In this document: in pieces, positions 9,459-19,671 of the stretch
Position numbering within the stretch: the stretch's first letter is position 1
How the letters are laid out: every line of letters begins with the position of its first letter
Source of the DNA: a virus
DNA: 28,973 nucleotides
Reading direction: 5' to 3' (one strand)
Virus record (IMG/VR): IMGVR_UViG_3300009159_000227
Location: 1-28,973 of that record
Translations under genes and position numbers: made by a program
Notes under the pieces: generated by a model
What the model was told of the DNA's origin: nothing
Database searches by the model: none
What the model saw: the letters and a program-made list of their open reading frames with translations, nothing else

Positions 9459-10583
9459 TTAAATTACATATATTTGACGAGGCATTGCTCTAAACTTCAT
9501 TTGTTTGTTTAAGTTTTCGGCAATTAATGCTTCTCTTTCCATTACCTTATCAGGTCTCATTTTTGTTAACCATCCTTCAGCACCAATAAGTTCTTCTGTT
9601 AATTTAGATTTTTCATCTTTAGCTTCAGTAAGTAAACTCTGATAGTCCATTACGATTTCAGAATCAGGTGTTTTTAAATTACCACTATACTTACCTCTAA
9701 CTCTCGCTAAAGTTTCTTTACAATAGGCGGTAAACCATCTTCTTACCCATTGTTGACCTGGTACATTTAAATCAATCCAAGTCAATTCCTCAATAGGAAC
9801 ATCTGTAGGTAATTTAATAATGTCAGGGTTATTTTTAAGACAGTCAGCTCTACTATCAGGCTCAACATCATAATACCAATACCATACGGCTTTACCTACG
9901 TATGCATTATAATTAGACCAATTAAATTTACCGCCTGGTGTATTGTACAAATGAATTGCTTTTTTACCGTCAGGTAAACCTGTTATTCTATATGTTAATG
10001 AACCACCTAAGATTCTATTAAGGATATTAGCTTCTTGCATTCTAATCAAGTAATCAAAACCTGACATCATAAAATAAGACCCTTGGTAACCCATTTGTGC
10101 AAAACCCGCTTCGTTTGCTCCAAGTCCAACACCACCAAAACCACCAGCCATACCACCTAATCCAAATGCACTCCATGCTTGGTCACTGAACCATAATAAT
10201 TCATTAACCTCACGTCCTGCAGGAATTTCATAAGTTTGTTGGTTTTTCTCAAGTATAAAGTAATCTTTCTTTAAAACCCAAGGACCTTCAGTTTGAAGAC
10301 CTACAATTTTAGAATATGAATAACTAAATTGTTGTTCAAAATCCATAGTTCTAGTAACAAGAGCTCTTGCTACAGACCTTTCGTTCATATTTAAATTAAC
10401 AAGATTAACCCATTGAGAATCAATTAACCATTGAAGGATATATTCTTCATAATCCCCAATTGCTAACTCCATTAATGAGTCCATCATTTCATCCTCAAGT
10501 TCAACACTTCTAAGCGGTGCGCCGAGTTGATGTTTGATTCTCGTATAAATTTTACTTCTTTCTGGTTCTGGTATTGCTGACAT
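9459..10583 (-). CDS. 13: Neck protein, T4 gp13-like
   Basis: The 374-residue protein begins MSAIPEPERSKIYTRIKHQL and has an acidic helix (VELEDEMMDSLMELAIGDYEEYI), a central Gly-rich stretch (141-167, GLGGMAGGFGG...), PGQQWVRRWFTAYCKETLARVRGKYSG near residue 280-310, and a coiled segment AKDEKSKLTEELIGAEGWL. This layout matches the gp13 neck family of T4-like phages, which with gp14 and gp15 joins head to tail. T4 gp13 is about 309 residues; the Gly-rich loop may explain part of the excess. It is unusual in lying on the minus strand, about 3.4 kb from the gp14-like gene, with an SOD fusion and a helicase in between. Confidence 0.65.
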   Translation of the reverse strand: MSAIPEPERSKIYTRIKHQLGAPLRSVELEDEMMDSLMELAIGDYEEYILQWLIDSQWVNLVNLNMNERSVARALVTRTMDFEQQFSYSYSKIVGLQTEGPWVLKKDYFILEKNQQTYEIPAGREVNELLWFSDQAWSAFGLGGMAGGFGGVGLGANEAGFAQMGYQGSYFMMSGFDYLIRMQEANILNRILGGSLTYRITGLPDGKKAIHLYNTPGGKFNWSNYNAYVGKAVWYWYYDVEPDSRADCLKNNPDIIKLPTDVPIEELTWIDLNVPGQQWVRRWFTAYCKETLARVRGKYSGNLKTPDSEIVMDYQSLLTEAKDEKSKLTEELIGAEGWLTKMRPDKVMEREALIAENLNKQMKFRAMPRQIYVI

Positions 10584-10607: not shown

Positions 10608-12137
10608 TTATATATCGTATAGTAACGAGTCAATTGGAAACACAAAGTTTCCGTTAACAATTTTTGGTTTTTTATCAAATACCAAAATATTTTTCCCTTT
10701 TTGAAAAATCATTAGGTCGGTATTATAAAGTTTAACACTTGCAGTTCCTTCTAAAGTTATTCCATCTTCTGAAACAATTTTATTTCTAAATGGTTTAACT
10801 TGAGCGGTATATGTTTTTCCGTCTTTAGTTATTTCCAAATCAACACCTTTAAGAGCATCTTTCTTACTTCCTAATTCACCAACTAATTCTACTTTAGCTT
10901 CTTTACCAAAATGTCTTTTTAATATTGCCGCCGTGATTTCTTCTCTCTTTGAACCTGCTTTATCTTTCTCAGTTAATACTCTTAAAAGATTAATTAATGT
11001 CGCACTTTGTTTATCAAAAATTCTAAACTTAAAGTGATTCAACGCAGCCACAAATCTTTCAACTTCTTTCTTTTGCTCAGCAGGAGTCTTACCCATAAAC
11101 TCTATAGGTTGTTTTCCTGTGGTTGCAACAATCACTCTGTTTAAGTCTTTCAATAAGATACAGAATGAAGTGTAATTAGTGTTCAATTTGTTTAATACTG
11201 ACCTCCCTGGTCCCTCAATATCGTATACTCCAGGTAGTTGGTCATTTTGTGGTTTTTCAATGTAATTCTCGTGAAATACCTCTTTCATAATTTTGTTGAC
11301 TCCATTCATATAAGTCCACTTAACATCAGGATTTACGTTGAATAACATTCTGTAAAATTCGTTTTCTGAAGAACTACACATCTCTGACTTACCTTCAGTT
11401 AACACTTGTTTCATCTCACGAGATTCTGTTAATTTTGTTTCAATTTTCATTTCATATAATTTTGTAACAAAATCCCAGTTAACTACTGTCCAAAAGTTTG
11501 AAATGTATTCATCTCTTTTGTTTTTGTATTTCAGATAGTAAGCGTGTTCCCACACATCTAAACCTAATAAAGGAAACCCACCACCCTCAATCACATTCAT
11601 TAATGGATTGTCTTGATTAGATGTGGACATAATTTTTAGAGTGTTTCTTGGTGTAAGAACCAACCAAGCCCATCCTGAACCAAAACGGTCCTTAGCAATT
11701 TTTTCAAATTCTTTTTTAAAATTTGTAAACGTCCCCCACTGTTTCGTGATTTTCTTATAAAGTTCCCCCTTTAATGGTTTTGAGTTAGGGGTCAACATAT
11801 TCCAAAACAATGCGTGGTTAAAAGCTCCACCTGCATTATTTCTTATGTCTTTATCAAAACGACTGATTGTCTTGATTATTTTTTCCAAATCTAAATCACC
11901 ATATTTCTTTTTTGATAAAGCGTCATTTAGTTTGTCTACATAACCTTTGTAGTGTTTGTTGTAATGAAAGTTCATTGTCTCTGAGTCAATAAACTGTTTC
12001 AGTGCTGAATAAGAGTAGGGTAATTTTTCAATCCCAATCTTTTTCATTTCGGCTATCAACAACTTTGTTTCTTTGTTAACGTGGTTTTCGTGTATTTGTT
12101 TTTCAAGTTGTTGGATTTGTTCTTCTATTTTTTTCAT
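10608..12137 (-). CDS. Mn-type superoxide dismutase fused to a nuclease-like C-terminal domain
   Basis: The 509-residue protein has, after a 35-residue helical start, a complete Fe/Mn superoxide dismutase domain (about 38-230): LPYSYSALKQFID, FHYNKHYKGYV, GGAFNHALFW, RFGSGWAWLV, NQDNPLM, LLGLDVWEHAYYLKYKNKR, WTVVNWDFV. All four metal ligands are present (His58, His108, Asp194, His198), with the second-sphere Tyr66. Gly near 104 and Gln in NQD follow the Mn-type pattern. A linker with two LTE sites (236-248) leads to 260 residues ending in a GVDLEI...YTAQVKPF motif (Asp433, Gln446, Lys448), shaped like a PD-(D/E)XK nuclease core with E399/E400 before it. SOD converts superoxide to peroxide and oxygen; the fused half may cut or bind DNA (inference). 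The family is normally about 200 residues. Confidence 0.85.
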   Translation of the reverse strand: MKKIEEQIQQLEKQIHENHVNKETKLLIAEMKKIGIEKLPYSYSALKQFIDSETMNFHYNKHYKGYVDKLNDALSKKKYGDLDLEKIIKTISRFDKDIRNNAGGAFNHALFWNMLTPNSKPLKGELYKKITKQWGTFTNFKKEFEKIAKDRFGSGWAWLVLTPRNTLKIMSTSNQDNPLMNVIEGGGFPLLGLDVWEHAYYLKYKNKRDEYISNFWTVVNWDFVTKLYEMKIETKLTESREMKQVLTEGKSEMCSSSENEFYRMLFNVNPDVKWTYMNGVNKIMKEVFHENYIEKPQNDQLPGVYDIEGPGRSVLNKLNTNYTSFCILLKDLNRVIVATTGKQPIEFMGKTPAEQKKEVERFVAALNHFKFRIFDKQSATLINLLRVLTEKDKAGSKREEITAAILKRHFGKEAKVELVGELGSKKDALKGVDLEITKDGKTYTAQVKPFRNKIVSEDGITLEGTASVKLYNTDLMIFQKGKNILVFDKKPKIVNGNFVFPIDSLLYDI

Positions 12138-12178: not shown

Positions 12179-13933
12179 TTAATGTCGCAGCTTATTGATT
12201 CTTTGTAAAATTTCTTCAGCAGCATCTGCGGGATTTTGATTGTCTCCCATGACAGTTGATATTACTAATTTCTTGTTATTTAATATATCATAGATGATTC
12301 CCTCAATTGTATTTTCAAAAATAGGGTAATAAACTAATACATTATTTTTTTGTCCGTAACGGTAAGCTCGGTCTTCAGATTGTGCATGGTCTGATGGCAG
12401 GAATGATAAGTCATTCATAATAACAGCTTCGGCCGCGGTTAAAGTTATACCAACACCAGCCGCTTTAATGTTTCCTACAAAAACTTTAACTTTGGGATTT
12501 TCTTGGAATTGGTCAACACTAAATTGTCTACTTGTCTTTGACATTGAACCATCTAACTTAACTGCCGTTTTTCCAAAGTGTTCAGTAATTTTATTTAATG
12601 AGTCTGTAAAGTTACAAAATATGATAACTTTTTTATCTTGTTCAATAATGTTTTCGGCAATTTCAATTGTTTGTGTAATTTTTTCATCCGCAATAATTTG
12701 CCTTACCTTTGTCAATTTAGAAAATTGAACTGTTAATGATTTTGATTCGTCAGGGTTCTTATCGTACCAGTCATAATAGTCTCCCATTACCTCCTCATAT
12801 TGTTTTGATTTTAGTTTAAGATATACAGGTGTAATAATCTTATCGGGTAAATCTAAAACATTTTCTTTTAATCTTCTTAATATTGTCCCTGATGTTCTAT
12901 CTCTTAATTCTTCAAGGTTACTTGCGCCCATAACATTCCAAACTTTTCTTGGTCCTGCTTTGAATTGGTATCCTTCACAATATCTGATAACATAGGCCAT
13001 CCAATTTTTGCTCACAGGTGAATCAACCAAACTTAATAAGTTGAAATAATCAATTGGTCTTGAAGTCATTGGAGTACCAGTCAATAACCAAAGTCTATCA
13101 ACATTCTTAACAATGTCGTTAATTAATTTGGTTCGTTGGGCTTGAGCATTTTTGATGTAGTGAGCCTCATCAATAATTACCAAATCAAAGTTTGCTAAAA
13201 GAACTTGTGAGTCATCTTTTTTCTTTGGGTCATGAAAATTTTTAATGATATCGTAGTTAATAATAACAAAATCAGAATCGGTACTAAAATTCTTTCCTTC
13301 CGCAATATAAACTAATTTGTTTGAATAATTTTCAATCTCTCTTTTCCAATTAATTTTTAAAGTTGCTGGACAAATAATTAAAACTTTCTTTGACCCTGCT
13401 TCTAAGGCGGCAATAATTGTTGAAGTTGTTTTACCTAAACCCATATCATCGGCCAAGATAAACTTCTTATTCTCAACTAATTTTTGAATTGCCTCTTTTT
13501 GGTGATTCAATGGAGGTCTGTGGGAATATTTCTCGTAATCAATAACTACATTCTTAACTGTGTTATCTTTGATGACTGCAGCCTTAGGTAACCAAAAATC
13601 GTGAAGTTCTTCATTATCAAACACTTTACCCCAAATGTGAAACGCTTTTTCTTTTTCTGCTAATAACTTTTCTACCCAAACTTTTTCAGGAATTTGAGTG
13701 TATAATTTATCGTCAGCCAATTTCTGAGCGAAGTAAGCATCAAGTACCACCCACTTCTTTGCAACCTTTGGTTGTTTATCGTGGTTATTAATAATGTATT
13801 CGGACTGACTTCTTGTTGGGTAGAATTTTTTGTTAAGTTGTGACTTTCTTTTCAATTCTAACAAGTAGTTATTTCCACCTTCATAGGTTTCAAGTAACGT
13901 CATTGCCTTAGACTCTAAACTTATTTCTATCAT
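12179..13933 (-). CDS. SNF2-family DNA helicase/translocase (UvsW or SMARCAL1-like)
   Basis: The 584-residue superfamily 2 ATPase has a short unique N-terminus (1-140), then motif Q/I (NHQKEAIQ; DDMGLGKTT, Walker A 162-170), CPATLKINW (Ia), IIDEAHYIKN (DEAH 255-258), WLLTGTPM (III, 283-289), and in the second RecA domain FCNFTDS, LDGSMSK, GVGITLTAA and SEDRAYRYGQ (motif VI). The DDMGLGKT and AYRYGQ forms are of SNF2 type, closest in style to SMARCAL1-type annealing helicases. In T4-like phages UvsW does the matching job: fork regression, recombination and the switch of replication mode. It lies divergently from the gp14-like gene. All ATPase residues look intact. Confidence 0.85.
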   Translation of the reverse strand: MIEISLESKAMTLLETYEGGNNYLLELKRKSQLNKKFYPTRSQSEYIINNHDKQPKVAKKWVVLDAYFAQKLADDKLYTQIPEKVWVEKLLAEKEKAFHIWGKVFDNEELHDFWLPKAAVIKDNTVKNVVIDYEKYSHRPPLNHQKEAIQKLVENKKFILADDMGLGKTTSTIIAALEAGSKKVLIICPATLKINWKREIENYSNKLVYIAEGKNFSTDSDFVIINYDIIKNFHDPKKKDDSQVLLANFDLVIIDEAHYIKNAQAQRTKLINDIVKNVDRLWLLTGTPMTSRPIDYFNLLSLVDSPVSKNWMAYVIRYCEGYQFKAGPRKVWNVMGASNLEELRDRTSGTILRRLKENVLDLPDKIITPVYLKLKSKQYEEVMGDYYDWYDKNPDESKSLTVQFSKLTKVRQIIADEKITQTIEIAENIIEQDKKVIIFCNFTDSLNKITEHFGKTAVKLDGSMSKTSRQFSVDQFQENPKVKVFVGNIKAAGVGITLTAAEAVIMNDLSFLPSDHAQSEDRAYRYGQKNNVLVYYPIFENTIEGIIYDILNNKKLVISTVMGDNQNPADAAEEILQRINKLRH

Positions 13934-16458: not shown

Positions 16459-19400
16459 ATGGCAACAGCACAAGCAAATCAAAAAGTATACGTATCACCA
16501 GGTGTCTACACATCTGAGACAGACTTATCGTTCGTGGCTCAGAGCGTAGGTGTTACGACATTAGGTCTTGTAGGGGAAACTATTAAGGGTCCTGCATTTG
16601 AACCTGTGTTCATTACAAACTACGACGAGTTCCAAGCTTACTTCGGTGGCACAGAACCTGTTAAGTTTTATAACACACAAATTCCTAAGTACGAAGCTGC
16701 TTACATAGCTAAATCTTACTTACAACAATCAAACCAATTATTTGTAACAAGAGTCTTAGGACTTTCAGGTTATGACGCAGGTCCTTCTTGGAGTCTTAAA
16801 TTAATCGCTAACGCTGACCCAACTACAATTGGATTAGATGGTGGTGGTACTCCTTGGTCTGCCGATTTTTCAGGAACTACAGGAGGGACAGTTACATTCT
16901 TAGACGCACTTCCTGATGAAGTACAAGCTAACTTAAATGTACAATATAGAATGGCTGATGGTAGTACATCAACATTACAAACAGATTTCAATACTTACTT
17001 GAGTGATATTTTCGTAAATGGTACTTCGGGGTCAACCGCAGTAATTTACGGAGCGATTGATTCAGCTGACTATGATTCATTAACAGGTTCAACATACACA
17101 GGTATTACTAATGCTTATGTTTGTGACTCACCAAATTTAGATTATAACGATTTATCTGCAAGTGATAATGATACTTGGTATTATGCTAACTTTAACTTAG
17201 ACAGTGGAAACGCTTACACAGGATATTCATTCTATTATAAATTTAATGCTGTAACGGGAGCATCAACTACGTATAGTGGTACTATTTCAGGTAACATCTA
17301 CTCATATACAGGAACTGCATATTCAGAGTTCAATAACATGGTTGTCGCAACTTTACGTTCAAGAGGTATCTCTTTATACGATAACAGTGCGGATAGTGAG
17401 AATCACGGACCAATTTATCAAGTAACAGGTCTTACTGATTTACAAATTGTGAGCACAGGTCAATACTCAGGTATTACTCAATCACCTTACGCAACATTCC
17501 TATTATCAGGTGTTACTAAAGCAGATGCTAACTCAGGAGAAAGAACTTCATTCTCATTTGAAACTTCATTATTAGCTTCATCTTCAAAATATCTTACTAA
17601 AGTATTGGGTGTTGACAACTTTGGAAAATCAAGATTTGAAGTTCCTGTGTTTGTAGAGGAAGCATATCAAGGTAGTCTTAACTATGCATATAATCAAGGT
17701 TATATTCGTGGTTTAAGTTCTGAATTAATAGCATTACCTGAAGCTAGAAGTCAAAACCCTAGTTCAATTGCTTGGAATTTAGAAAAGTATCAATCACCTG
17801 AAACACCTTATTTAGTTTCTGAATTGAGAGGTAATAAAGTTTATAACTTATTCAAGTTTATCTCAATCTCTGATGGAGATTCTGCTAACGTTGAAATCAA
17901 AGTTTCTATAGCTAACTTATCATTCAACAATATGTCGTTTGACGTTTTAGTTAGAAATTTTTATGATACAGATGCTAATCCAGTTGTAATTGAGAAATTC
18001 ACAAATTGTAATATGGACCCAGCTTCTAACAACTTTGTTGCTAAGAAAATTGGTTCATCTAATGGCGAGTTTGCATTAATTTCAAAATATATAATGATTG
18101 AATTGGCGGATGAAGCTCCGATTGATGCAATCCCTTGTGGATTCTACGGTTATACTCAAAGAGAGTATGAATCTGCTTCTAATCCTTCACCATACCCTAA
18201 ATTCAAAACTAAATATTATTATCCAGGTGAGGTTATTTATAATCCTCCATTCGGAACTGCTGCTGGTACATCAAATGCTGTAGAGTCGGCAGGAGATATA
18301 GTTAGAAGAAGTTATTTAGGATTCTCAACTCAATTTGGAATTGATGAGTCATTCTTAACATATAAAGGAAAACAAAATCCTATAGTTGGCTGGGAAACAG
18401 CAACTGATTCAGTTAAATGGAATTACTTAAGTAAAGGTTTCCACATGGACTCAGGTGCAACTGTTGTCACAATTGCTAACACATCAATATCTAGTGGTCA
18501 AACAGCATTTGAATGTGGTGTTGCAGATTTCAGAAGTGACCCACAAACTCAAGAAAATCCGTATTACTTCATTTACGCTAGAAAGTACACAGTATGTTTT
18601 GCTGGTGGATTTGACGGATGGGATATCTACAGAGAGTGGAGAACTAACCAAGATAGATTCCAATTGGGAGCTTCGGGTTTTTTAGCTGGCGCTTATCCAT
18701 CATCTAGATACCCTACTGCAACAGGTGACGGTATGTTCAAGAGAATAATTGTACAAAACAATACTCAAGATTTTGCAAACACTGACTACTACGCTTACTT
18801 ATTAGGTATCTTATCATTTGGAAATCCTGAGGCGACAAACATTAACGTGTTTGCAACTTCAAGTATTGACTATGTTAACAACTCAAACTTAGTAGAAGAA
18901 GCGATAGACATGATTCAATATTCAAGAGCTGATTCAGTTTACATTGCAACAACTCCCGATTACAGCATGTATACACCAGATTCAACGAGTTCTTTAGATA
19001 TCATCTACTCACAAGAGGCTGTTGATAACTTAAATAACACAGGTATTGACTCTAACTATACCGCAACTTATTATCCTTGGATATTAGTAAGAGATACAGT
19101 TAACAATACACAAATCTATTTACCACCAACAGGTGAAGTTTGTAGAAACTTAGCATTGACTGATAACATTGCATTCCCTTGGTTCGCATCTGCGGGTTAC
19201 ACAAGAGGTCTTGTAAACTCAATCAAAGCTAGACAAAAATTAACTCAACAAGATAGAGATACATTGTATCAAGGTAGAATTAACCCAATCGCTACTTTCT
19301 CTGATGTAGGAACTGTAATTTGGGGTAACAAAACTTTACAAGTTGCTGATACCGCACTTAACAGATTAAATGTTAGAAGATTGTTATTACAAGCTCGTAA

Positions 19401-19671
19401 GTTAATTTCAGCTGTAGCGGTTAGATTATTGTTTGAACAAAACGACCAAATCGTTAGACAACAATTCTTAGATAGTGTTAACCCTATTTTAGATTCAATC
19501 AGAAGAGACAGAGGTTTATACGATTTCCGTGTAACAGTTTCTTCTTCACCTGAAGATTTAGATAGAAATACATTAACAGGTAAGATATACTTAAAACCAA
19601 CAAAAGCTTTAGAATTCATTGACATTGAATTCTTTATAACTCCAACAGGAGCTTCGTTTGAGAATATCTAA
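16459..19671 (+). CDS. 18: Tail sheath protein, gp18-like
   Basis: The 1070-residue major contractile sheath subunit. The N-terminus is typical: VYVSPGVYTSETDLSFV..., VGVTTLGLVGET and PVFITNYDEFQAYFGG. The C-terminal third is the conserved sheath core: PWFASAGYTRG, KLTQQDRDTLYQGRINPIA, NVRRLLLQARKLISAV and DFRVTVSSSPEDLDRNTL, ending with a strand-rich tail that links neighbouring subunits. T4 gp18 has 659 residues; the extra 400 lie mainly between about residues 90 and 560, in a Ser/Thr/Tyr/Asn-rich region that would form the outward-facing protease-resistant and insertion domains. Strong hairpin terminator follows. Confidence 0.93.
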   Translation: MATAQANQKVYVSPGVYTSETDLSFVAQSVGVTTLGLVGETIKGPAFEPVFITNYDEFQAYFGGTEPVKFYNTQIPKYEAAYIAKSYLQQSNQLFVTRVLGLSGYDAGPSWSLKLIANADPTTIGLDGGGTPWSADFSGTTGGTVTFLDALPDEVQANLNVQYRMADGSTSTLQTDFNTYLSDIFVNGTSGSTAVIYGAIDSADYDSLTGSTYTGITNAYVCDSPNLDYNDLSASDNDTWYYANFNLDSGNAYTGYSFYYKFNAVTGASTTYSGTISGNIYSYTGTAYSEFNNMVVATLRSRGISLYDNSADSENHGPIYQVTGLTDLQIVSTGQYSGITQSPYATFLLSGVTKADANSGERTSFSFETSLLASSSKYLTKVLGVDNFGKSRFEVPVFVEEAYQGSLNYAYNQGYIRGLSSELIALPEARSQNPSSIAWNLEKYQSPETPYLVSELRGNKVYNLFKFISISDGDSANVEIKVSIANLSFNNMSFDVLVRNFYDTDANPVVIEKFTNCNMDPASNNFVAKKIGSSNGEFALISKYIMIELADEAPIDAIPCGFYGYTQREYESASNPSPYPKFKTKYYYPGEVIYNPPFGTAAGTSNAVESAGDIVRRSYLGFSTQFGIDESFLTYKGKQNPIVGWETATDSVKWNYLSKGFHMDSGATVVTIANTSISSGQTAFECGVADFRSDPQTQENPYYFIYARKYTVCFAGGFDGWDIYREWRTNQDRFQLGASGFLAGAYPSSRYPTATGDGMFKRIIVQNNTQDFANTDYYAYLLGILSFGNPEATNINVFATSSIDYVNNSNLVEEAIDMIQYSRADSVYIATTPDYSMYTPDSTSSLDIIYSQEAVDNLNNTGIDSNYTATYYPWILVRDTVNNTQIYLPPTGEVCRNLALTDNIAFPWFASAGYTRGLVNSIKARQKLTQQDRDTLYQGRINPIATFSDVGTVIWGNKTLQVADTALNRLNVRRLLLQARKLISAVAVRLLFEQNDQIVRQQFLDSVNPILDSIRRDRGLYDFRVTVSSSPEDLDRNTLTGKIYLKPTKALEFIDIEFFITPTGASFENI

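Follow-up and report, generated by a model that had tools for sequence, protein, structure and literature searches.

Why would a phage join a superoxide dismutase (SOD) to a nuclease-like domain in a single gene? The question is raised by a locus in the virus record IMGVR_UViG_3300009159_000227 of IMG/VR, whose whole stretch of 28,973 nucleotides was analysed and is referred to here as the window. In this locus, the SOD and a C-terminal part are read through in the same frame, forming one open reading frame of 509 aa. The features of the locus are collected in Table 1.

Table 1. Features of the SOD-nuclease locus. Positions are those of the window and residues are numbered on the 509-aa protein.
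Feature	Position	Strand	Basis
SOD-nuclease fusion gene, 509 aa	10608..12137	(-)	Single open frame; 80 distinct fused homologues; low dN/dS
N-terminal extension, residues 1-30, ending I-(T/S/A)-E-30 before Met31	12048..12137	(-)	Invariance; predicted helix
Fe/Mn superoxide dismutase domain, residues ~31-230; H58, H108, D194, H198	11448..12047	(-)	Pfam, PDB sequence search, invariance
Interdomain linker, residues 231-248; prohead-protease-like sites LTE-238/S and LTE-248/G	11394..11447	(-)	Conservation; low pLDDT
Helical region, residues 249-390	10968..11393	(-)	AlphaFold2 helices; no Pfam or PHROGs hit reaching cut-off
PD-(D/E)XK-like nuclease core (predicted), residues 391-509; E399, D433, Q446, K448	10611..10967	(-)	AlphaFold2 and VIA-align, invariant residues
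SNF2/UvsW-type DNA helicase, before the fusion gene	12179..13933	(-)	Pfam; PHROG DNA helicase, 3e-113
Head-tail adaptor Ad2-like protein, after the fusion gene	9459..10583	(-)	phrog_211, E 2e-10
TATTTAT promoter-like motif, 23-29 nt upstream of the fusion start codon	12160..12166	(-)	Window sequence

The recurrence of the fusion was analysed in IMG/VR, where scans with the full protein found 228 relatives and those with the C-terminal profile no fewer than 324, the best 80 per scan being fetched. In this fetched set, the fusion is full-length in 219 loci from many metagenomes, which represent 80 distinct sequences, some contigs having been fetched repeatedly. All intact copies in the 219 loci carry the SOD and the C-terminal part in a single frame; where a match is partial, it lies at a contig end or belongs to a separate SOD or nuclease protein of another phage. 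The full-length identity between the window protein and its relatives from the first scan is 67-83%, and over the nuclease part it falls to 57%; within the fused family, divergence of the nuclease part reaches about 50% identity. With pairwise dN/dS values of about 0.04 in the SOD and 0.08-0.10 in the C-terminal part, both halves are under strong purifying selection. A frame error can be ruled out by the one open frame with its low dN/dS, in agreement with the preliminary description of this DNA, which had held that the fusion is not a frame artefact. That description had also named misassembly between the two halves as a possible refutation and a search for the same fusion in other viral contigs as a check; the search found at least 219 loci, and the recurrence in 80 distinct sequences rules out an assembly chimera. 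The SOD-nuclease gene is carried by a large family of T4-like environmental phages. PADLOC matched the fusion to no defence family.

The N-terminal half is a complete SOD of the Fe/Mn family, predicted from its sequence features to be of the Mn type. Both Pfam domains, spanning residues 36-226, score above their cut-offs (Sod_Fe_N, E 3.4e-22, 79.1 bits, cut-off 27; Sod_Fe_C, E 1.3e-40, 138 bits, cut-off 20.9), and the top PDB sequence match is the Mn-SOD 2cdy (E 4.1e-58). The four metal ligands His58, His108, Asp194 and His198 are invariant in 81 aligned rows. Moreover, Gln175 and the pair GG103-104 are Mn-type features, and the Mn SOD model of NCBIfam outscores the Fe model. The complete SOD with four ligands and Mn-type second-sphere residues that had been read from the window is thus confirmed by domain scores, invariance and Gln175 with GG103-104. 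The half shares with SodFM enzymes of the Mn type both Pfam domains, the ligands, the Gln and the Gly-Gly, and differs from them in a 30-residue N-terminal extension, a 280-residue C-terminal addition and a virion-type promoter motif, in a phage gene. Stand-alone SOD genes are present in other phages. As the domain is that of a normal Mn-type SOD, the gene could be a host-derived auxiliary metabolic gene, an ordinary SOD acting in the infected cell whose fusion is incidental; we consider this very unlikely, since the fusion is found without exception although the identity of the nuclease part falls to about 50%, and since the linker sites described below are invariant.

For the C-terminal 261 residues (249-509), none of Pfam, PHROGs and NCBIfam gave a family that passes the cut-off, and no nuclease family was found for them in NCBIfam, PHROGs or the PDB sequences. 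DUF6602 and ABC-3C MC4 were rejected as assignments, since their Pfam scores, with members scanned singly, lie under the curated cut-off. The AlphaFold2 model of these residues, built with 19 relatives in the alignment, has a mean pLDDT of 92.9, and over its last 117 residues it folds into an alpha-beta-beta-beta core (in the numbering of this model, helix 131-165 and strands 166-170, 186-190 and 193-201). When residues ~393-509 were compared using VIA-align, the Hjc Holliday junction resolvases were the best matches (Z 8.4, rmsd 3.4, 99 residues), followed by I-Ssp6803I (Z 7.3), with NhoI and RecU lower; these Z values are moderate, near the level that the tool itself grades as middling. The best E-value in a Foldseek search of the PDB was 0.013. 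The likeness to Hjc is one of fold only, as no Hjc family was matched by sequence in Pfam, PHROGs or the PDB. Residues E399, D433, Q446 and K448 are invariant in 19 aligned full-length proteins and are placed in the expected core elements. According to the model, the C-terminal part ends in a Holliday-junction-resolvase-like PD-(D/E)XK core and is a predicted nuclease. The preliminary description had proposed a PD-(D/E)XK-like core with Asp433, Gln446 and Lys448, and had treated structure prediction as the place where this could fail; the predicted fold came out nuclease-like, with Hjc at Z 8.4 and these residues invariant. The shared features with Hjc, RecU and I-Ssp6803I are the core, in which E, D and QxK each lie where expected, and moderate structural matches, and the differences are the lack of a sequence-family match above cut-off and an extra helical region of 140 residues.

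In the (D/E)xK motif a Gln stands where Asp or Glu is usual, and the fold similarity to PDB entries is moderate. Both points would fit a different reading, in which only the SOD works as an enzyme, while the PD-(D/E)XK fold of the C-terminal part is catalytically weak or has a structural role, as a module for binding DNA or the head core. We regard this as improbable. The four core residues are invariant and are conserved in distant homologues, the dN/dS of the C-terminal part is about 0.10, and the active endonuclease I-Ssp6803I is among the best structural matches. I-Ssp6803I likewise has Gln at the acidic position of (D/E)xK.

Homologues outside the fused family were also found. The C-terminal family occurs without SOD in two huge phages: LR756501, of 735 kb, has a protein of 290 aa (profile E 9e-18), and LR745206, of 634 kb, has one of 251 aa (E 7e-10; L249:2494-3249 (+)). 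The C-terminal part can therefore stand alone. All four core residues are also kept in the homologue L082, and D and QxK are kept in the LR745206 homologue in a profile alignment. The N-terminus of the latter, MKKFTEYIKE/S (here and below, a slash marks a putative cut), resembles a short capsid-targeting sequence. Several genes adjoining it begin similarly, with M-K-x-F/Y...NE(S/D), perhaps as a common capsid-targeting signature. With the L082 protein as query, no stand-alone C-terminal homologues were found in IMG/VR. The C-terminal profile gave no match in GTDB genomes, and so a bacterial source or host was not found.

Two protein models resemble the C-terminal model. UniProt A0A6J5L953 (501 aa, uncultured Caudovirales phage) is annotated solely as SOD, and its model matches the C-terminal model with a TM-score of 0.91 at 34% identity; on this ground it is probably the same fusion, already in UniProt under the name of SOD. 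Additionally, a domain of A0A8D9CCA0 (BFVD; 1113 aa, uncultured marine phage) matches the C-terminal model with a TM-score of 0.86, and the remainder of this protein may be further cargo.

The linker between the two halves carries two short motifs. When the whole protein was scanned for [LIM]xE[AGST], the motif was found at 236 and 246 in 33 of 33 representatives, and at no other position was it complete. In the 81 aligned rows, the glutamates of both sites (E238, E248) never change. Position 236 holds Leu or Ile, and position 246 holds Leu, Ile or Met; between these and the Glu, the residue is variable (T/A/L/M/V/S in the first site, S/T/N/K/M in the second), and the residue that follows is Ser, Thr or Asn after E238 and Gly, Ala, Ser or Glu after E248. 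In neighbouring genes, we counted 3 conserved [LIM]xE[AGST] sites in ~2,640 aa, with middle residues hardly varying, and two sites in an 18-residue linker are therefore unlikely by chance. A Poisson estimate gives ~2 in 10,000, a guide only as the linker was picked post hoc. Conserved [LI]xE copies also occur within folded proteins, such as the helicase and the polymerase. In the full-length model the linker has low pLDDT (below 50 at 236-239), in a shallow alignment with which the SOD part is also poorly modelled. The two sites match the signature of the T4 gp21 prohead protease, which would cut after each Glu. The preliminary description had not mentioned them. In the N-terminal extension, a predicted helix of low pLDDT in the same model, I28, E30 and M31 are invariant in the 81 rows. 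These 30 residues, which end in IxE-30 followed by Met, are unlike the 10-residue targeting sequence of T4, and are possibly a propeptide or a capsid-targeting sequence.

As the window is a fragment without protease and capsid genes, the evidence on these comes from a relative that carries the fusion, the 182-kb contig of locus L007 (G001). It encodes an S77 protease of the gp21 type (PF03420, E 1.7e-23) and a Gp23-type capsid protein. Among cultured phages, the closest relatives by capsid infect Flavobacterium and Microcystis. Of the 18 contigs in which the protease was looked for, this was the one that had it; the remaining 17 are mostly short fragments. T4 gp21 cleaves Alt at ITE-6 and LTE-619 (PMC5694885); it also trims its own chain by 9 residues and gp23 by 65 (PMC9958956). 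In G001, the protease begins with MKQLRILE/A, the capsid protein has LINE/A at residue 60, the protein g88 encoded beside the capsid gene begins with MKKNRISE/A, and a scaffold candidate has conserved LGES, LKES, INES/LSES and LIES sites. The site rule in these head proteins, with the cuts placed by motif, is the same as in the fusion linker. Across the G001 proteome, N-terminal [LIM]xE[AGS] is enriched about two-fold (p 0.003) and is modestly associated with the promoter motif TATTTAT (p 0.012); owing to the small size of both effects, they are not among our main arguments.

Further proteins with such sites were observed. The G001 protein g59 (G001:85919-86545, 208 aa), with relatives in L173 and L174, has up to five conserved [LI]xE[AGS] sites and is probably a component of the prohead core that undergoes heavy processing. 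A polyphosphate kinase 2 (L170:6933-8030 (-), equal to G001:177933-179030; PF03976, E 2.9e-70) has LxE/IxE sites at its N-terminus (MRLLSEIERIQSVMGIIKE/A) and a TATTTAT motif, and is possibly another packaged enzyme. In the Pseudomonas jumbo phage PA5oct, the SOD EST35_0261 has the N-terminus MNDSIKKYISIAE/A, with IAE/A ahead of the SOD domain, and its record is flagged ESI-MS/MS. The same flag is carried by GTP cyclohydrolase, FtsH and similar metabolic proteins nearby, and it is therefore no proof of an internal head protein.

The gene setting bears on when the fusion is made and where it acts. Of 221 fetched copies of the fusion gene, 215 have TATTTAT upstream. In G001, TATTTAT(A) lies upstream of 48 genes, against 15 for the antisense motif, mostly 10-30 nt from the start codon, and among these genes are those for the sheath, tube, portal, protease and the fusion. 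From its position, the motif is probably a late promoter in these phages. It is unlike the T4 late promoter TATAAATA, which has 7 matches in the window, not above chance. The window also encodes a tail sheath protein (16459-19671 (+), 1070 aa), in which the sheath match is confined to about 795-1068. For the helicase that precedes the fusion gene, a ZorD-type identity was rejected, as the PADLOC matches are explained by the shared SNF2 domain.

This helicase gene lies directly before the fusion gene on the same strand, the nuclease core is closest to the junction resolvases Hjc and RecU, and the fusion is kept in all homologues of the fused set. These observations would suit an uncut bifunctional enzyme inside the cell, in which the SOD guards DNA near a junction-resolving nuclease that works with the UvsW-type helicase before packaging. 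Such an enzyme is the main rival to a role as head cargo and we think it unlikely, as it leaves unexplained why two protease-type sites stay invariant while the linker around them varies, and why there are nuclease homologues without SOD, and as the fusion gene has a promoter-like motif of its own, of the virion-gene type. The linker sites and the homologues without SOD likewise speak against one joined, redox-linked nuclease, a reading offered in the preliminary description. For another of its readings, an antidefence protein delivered with the genome, the delivery is supported by the linker sites, the gp21-type protease, the motif in head proteins and the virion-gene promoter motif.

We therefore favour, with somewhat better than even confidence, a fusion that is a head-packaged precursor of two enzymes, which would be cleaved inside the prohead and brought into the host along with the genome. 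The precursor would be synthesised, probably late in infection, and then taken into the prohead core, where the gp21-type protease would cleave behind E238 and E248, with E30 as a possible third site. A SOD of ~24 kDa and a nuclease of ~30 kDa would be retained in the head and pass into the host together with the DNA, like IPI and Alt of T4. The SOD would then clear superoxide near the DNA, both inside the particle and at an early stage of infection, and the nuclease would target host DNA, competing DNA or branched DNA. Keeping both as a single precursor until head closure could limit damage to phage DNA in the producing cell.

T4 packages and ejects Alt and the restriction inhibitor IPI, and foreign proteins, including EcoRI and staphylococcal nuclease, have been packaged in T4 via a targeting sequence (PMC9026906). 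The fusion resembles Alt and IPI-III in its [LI]-x-E processing motif (ITE and LTE in Alt), in the gp21-type protease and T4-type capsid of a close relative, and in a promoter motif common to virion genes. It differs in its cargo of SOD and nuclease with sites between two folded enzymes, in the lack of a clear 10-residue targeting sequence, and in being known from sequence. Giant viruses of eukaryotes carry SOD in their virions, such as the Cu,Zn-SOD of Megavirus, which is thought to resist redox stress (PMC9405923). These too are viral SODs, reported in particles; they are unrelated Cu,Zn enzymes, without a nuclease, from viruses of eukaryotic hosts.

Mn-SOD, the PD-(D/E)XK fold and head cargo processed by gp21 are each of a known kind. 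In the open-access literature we found no description of a SOD-nuclease fusion or of a head precursor that yields two enzymes. More tentatively, and with rather less than even confidence, we propose that the fusion is a head polyprotein, one prohead precursor that the maturation protease splits into two injected enzymes, SOD and nuclease. If so, joining the two would keep the nuclease under control, supply both enzymes in equal dose and link protection from oxidation with the attack on DNA at the start of infection, and the prohead protease would be a polyprotein protease that releases two enzymes. Phages would then bring a defence against oxidative stress as protein cargo of the particle, one-to-one with an injected nuclease, and the reason why phages carry SOD would become directly testable. 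To our knowledge, almost no injected enzymes of uncultured huge phages are known, and conserved [LI]xE[AGST] sites together with the virion-gene promoter motif would, if the proposal is true, provide a sequence rule for finding them.
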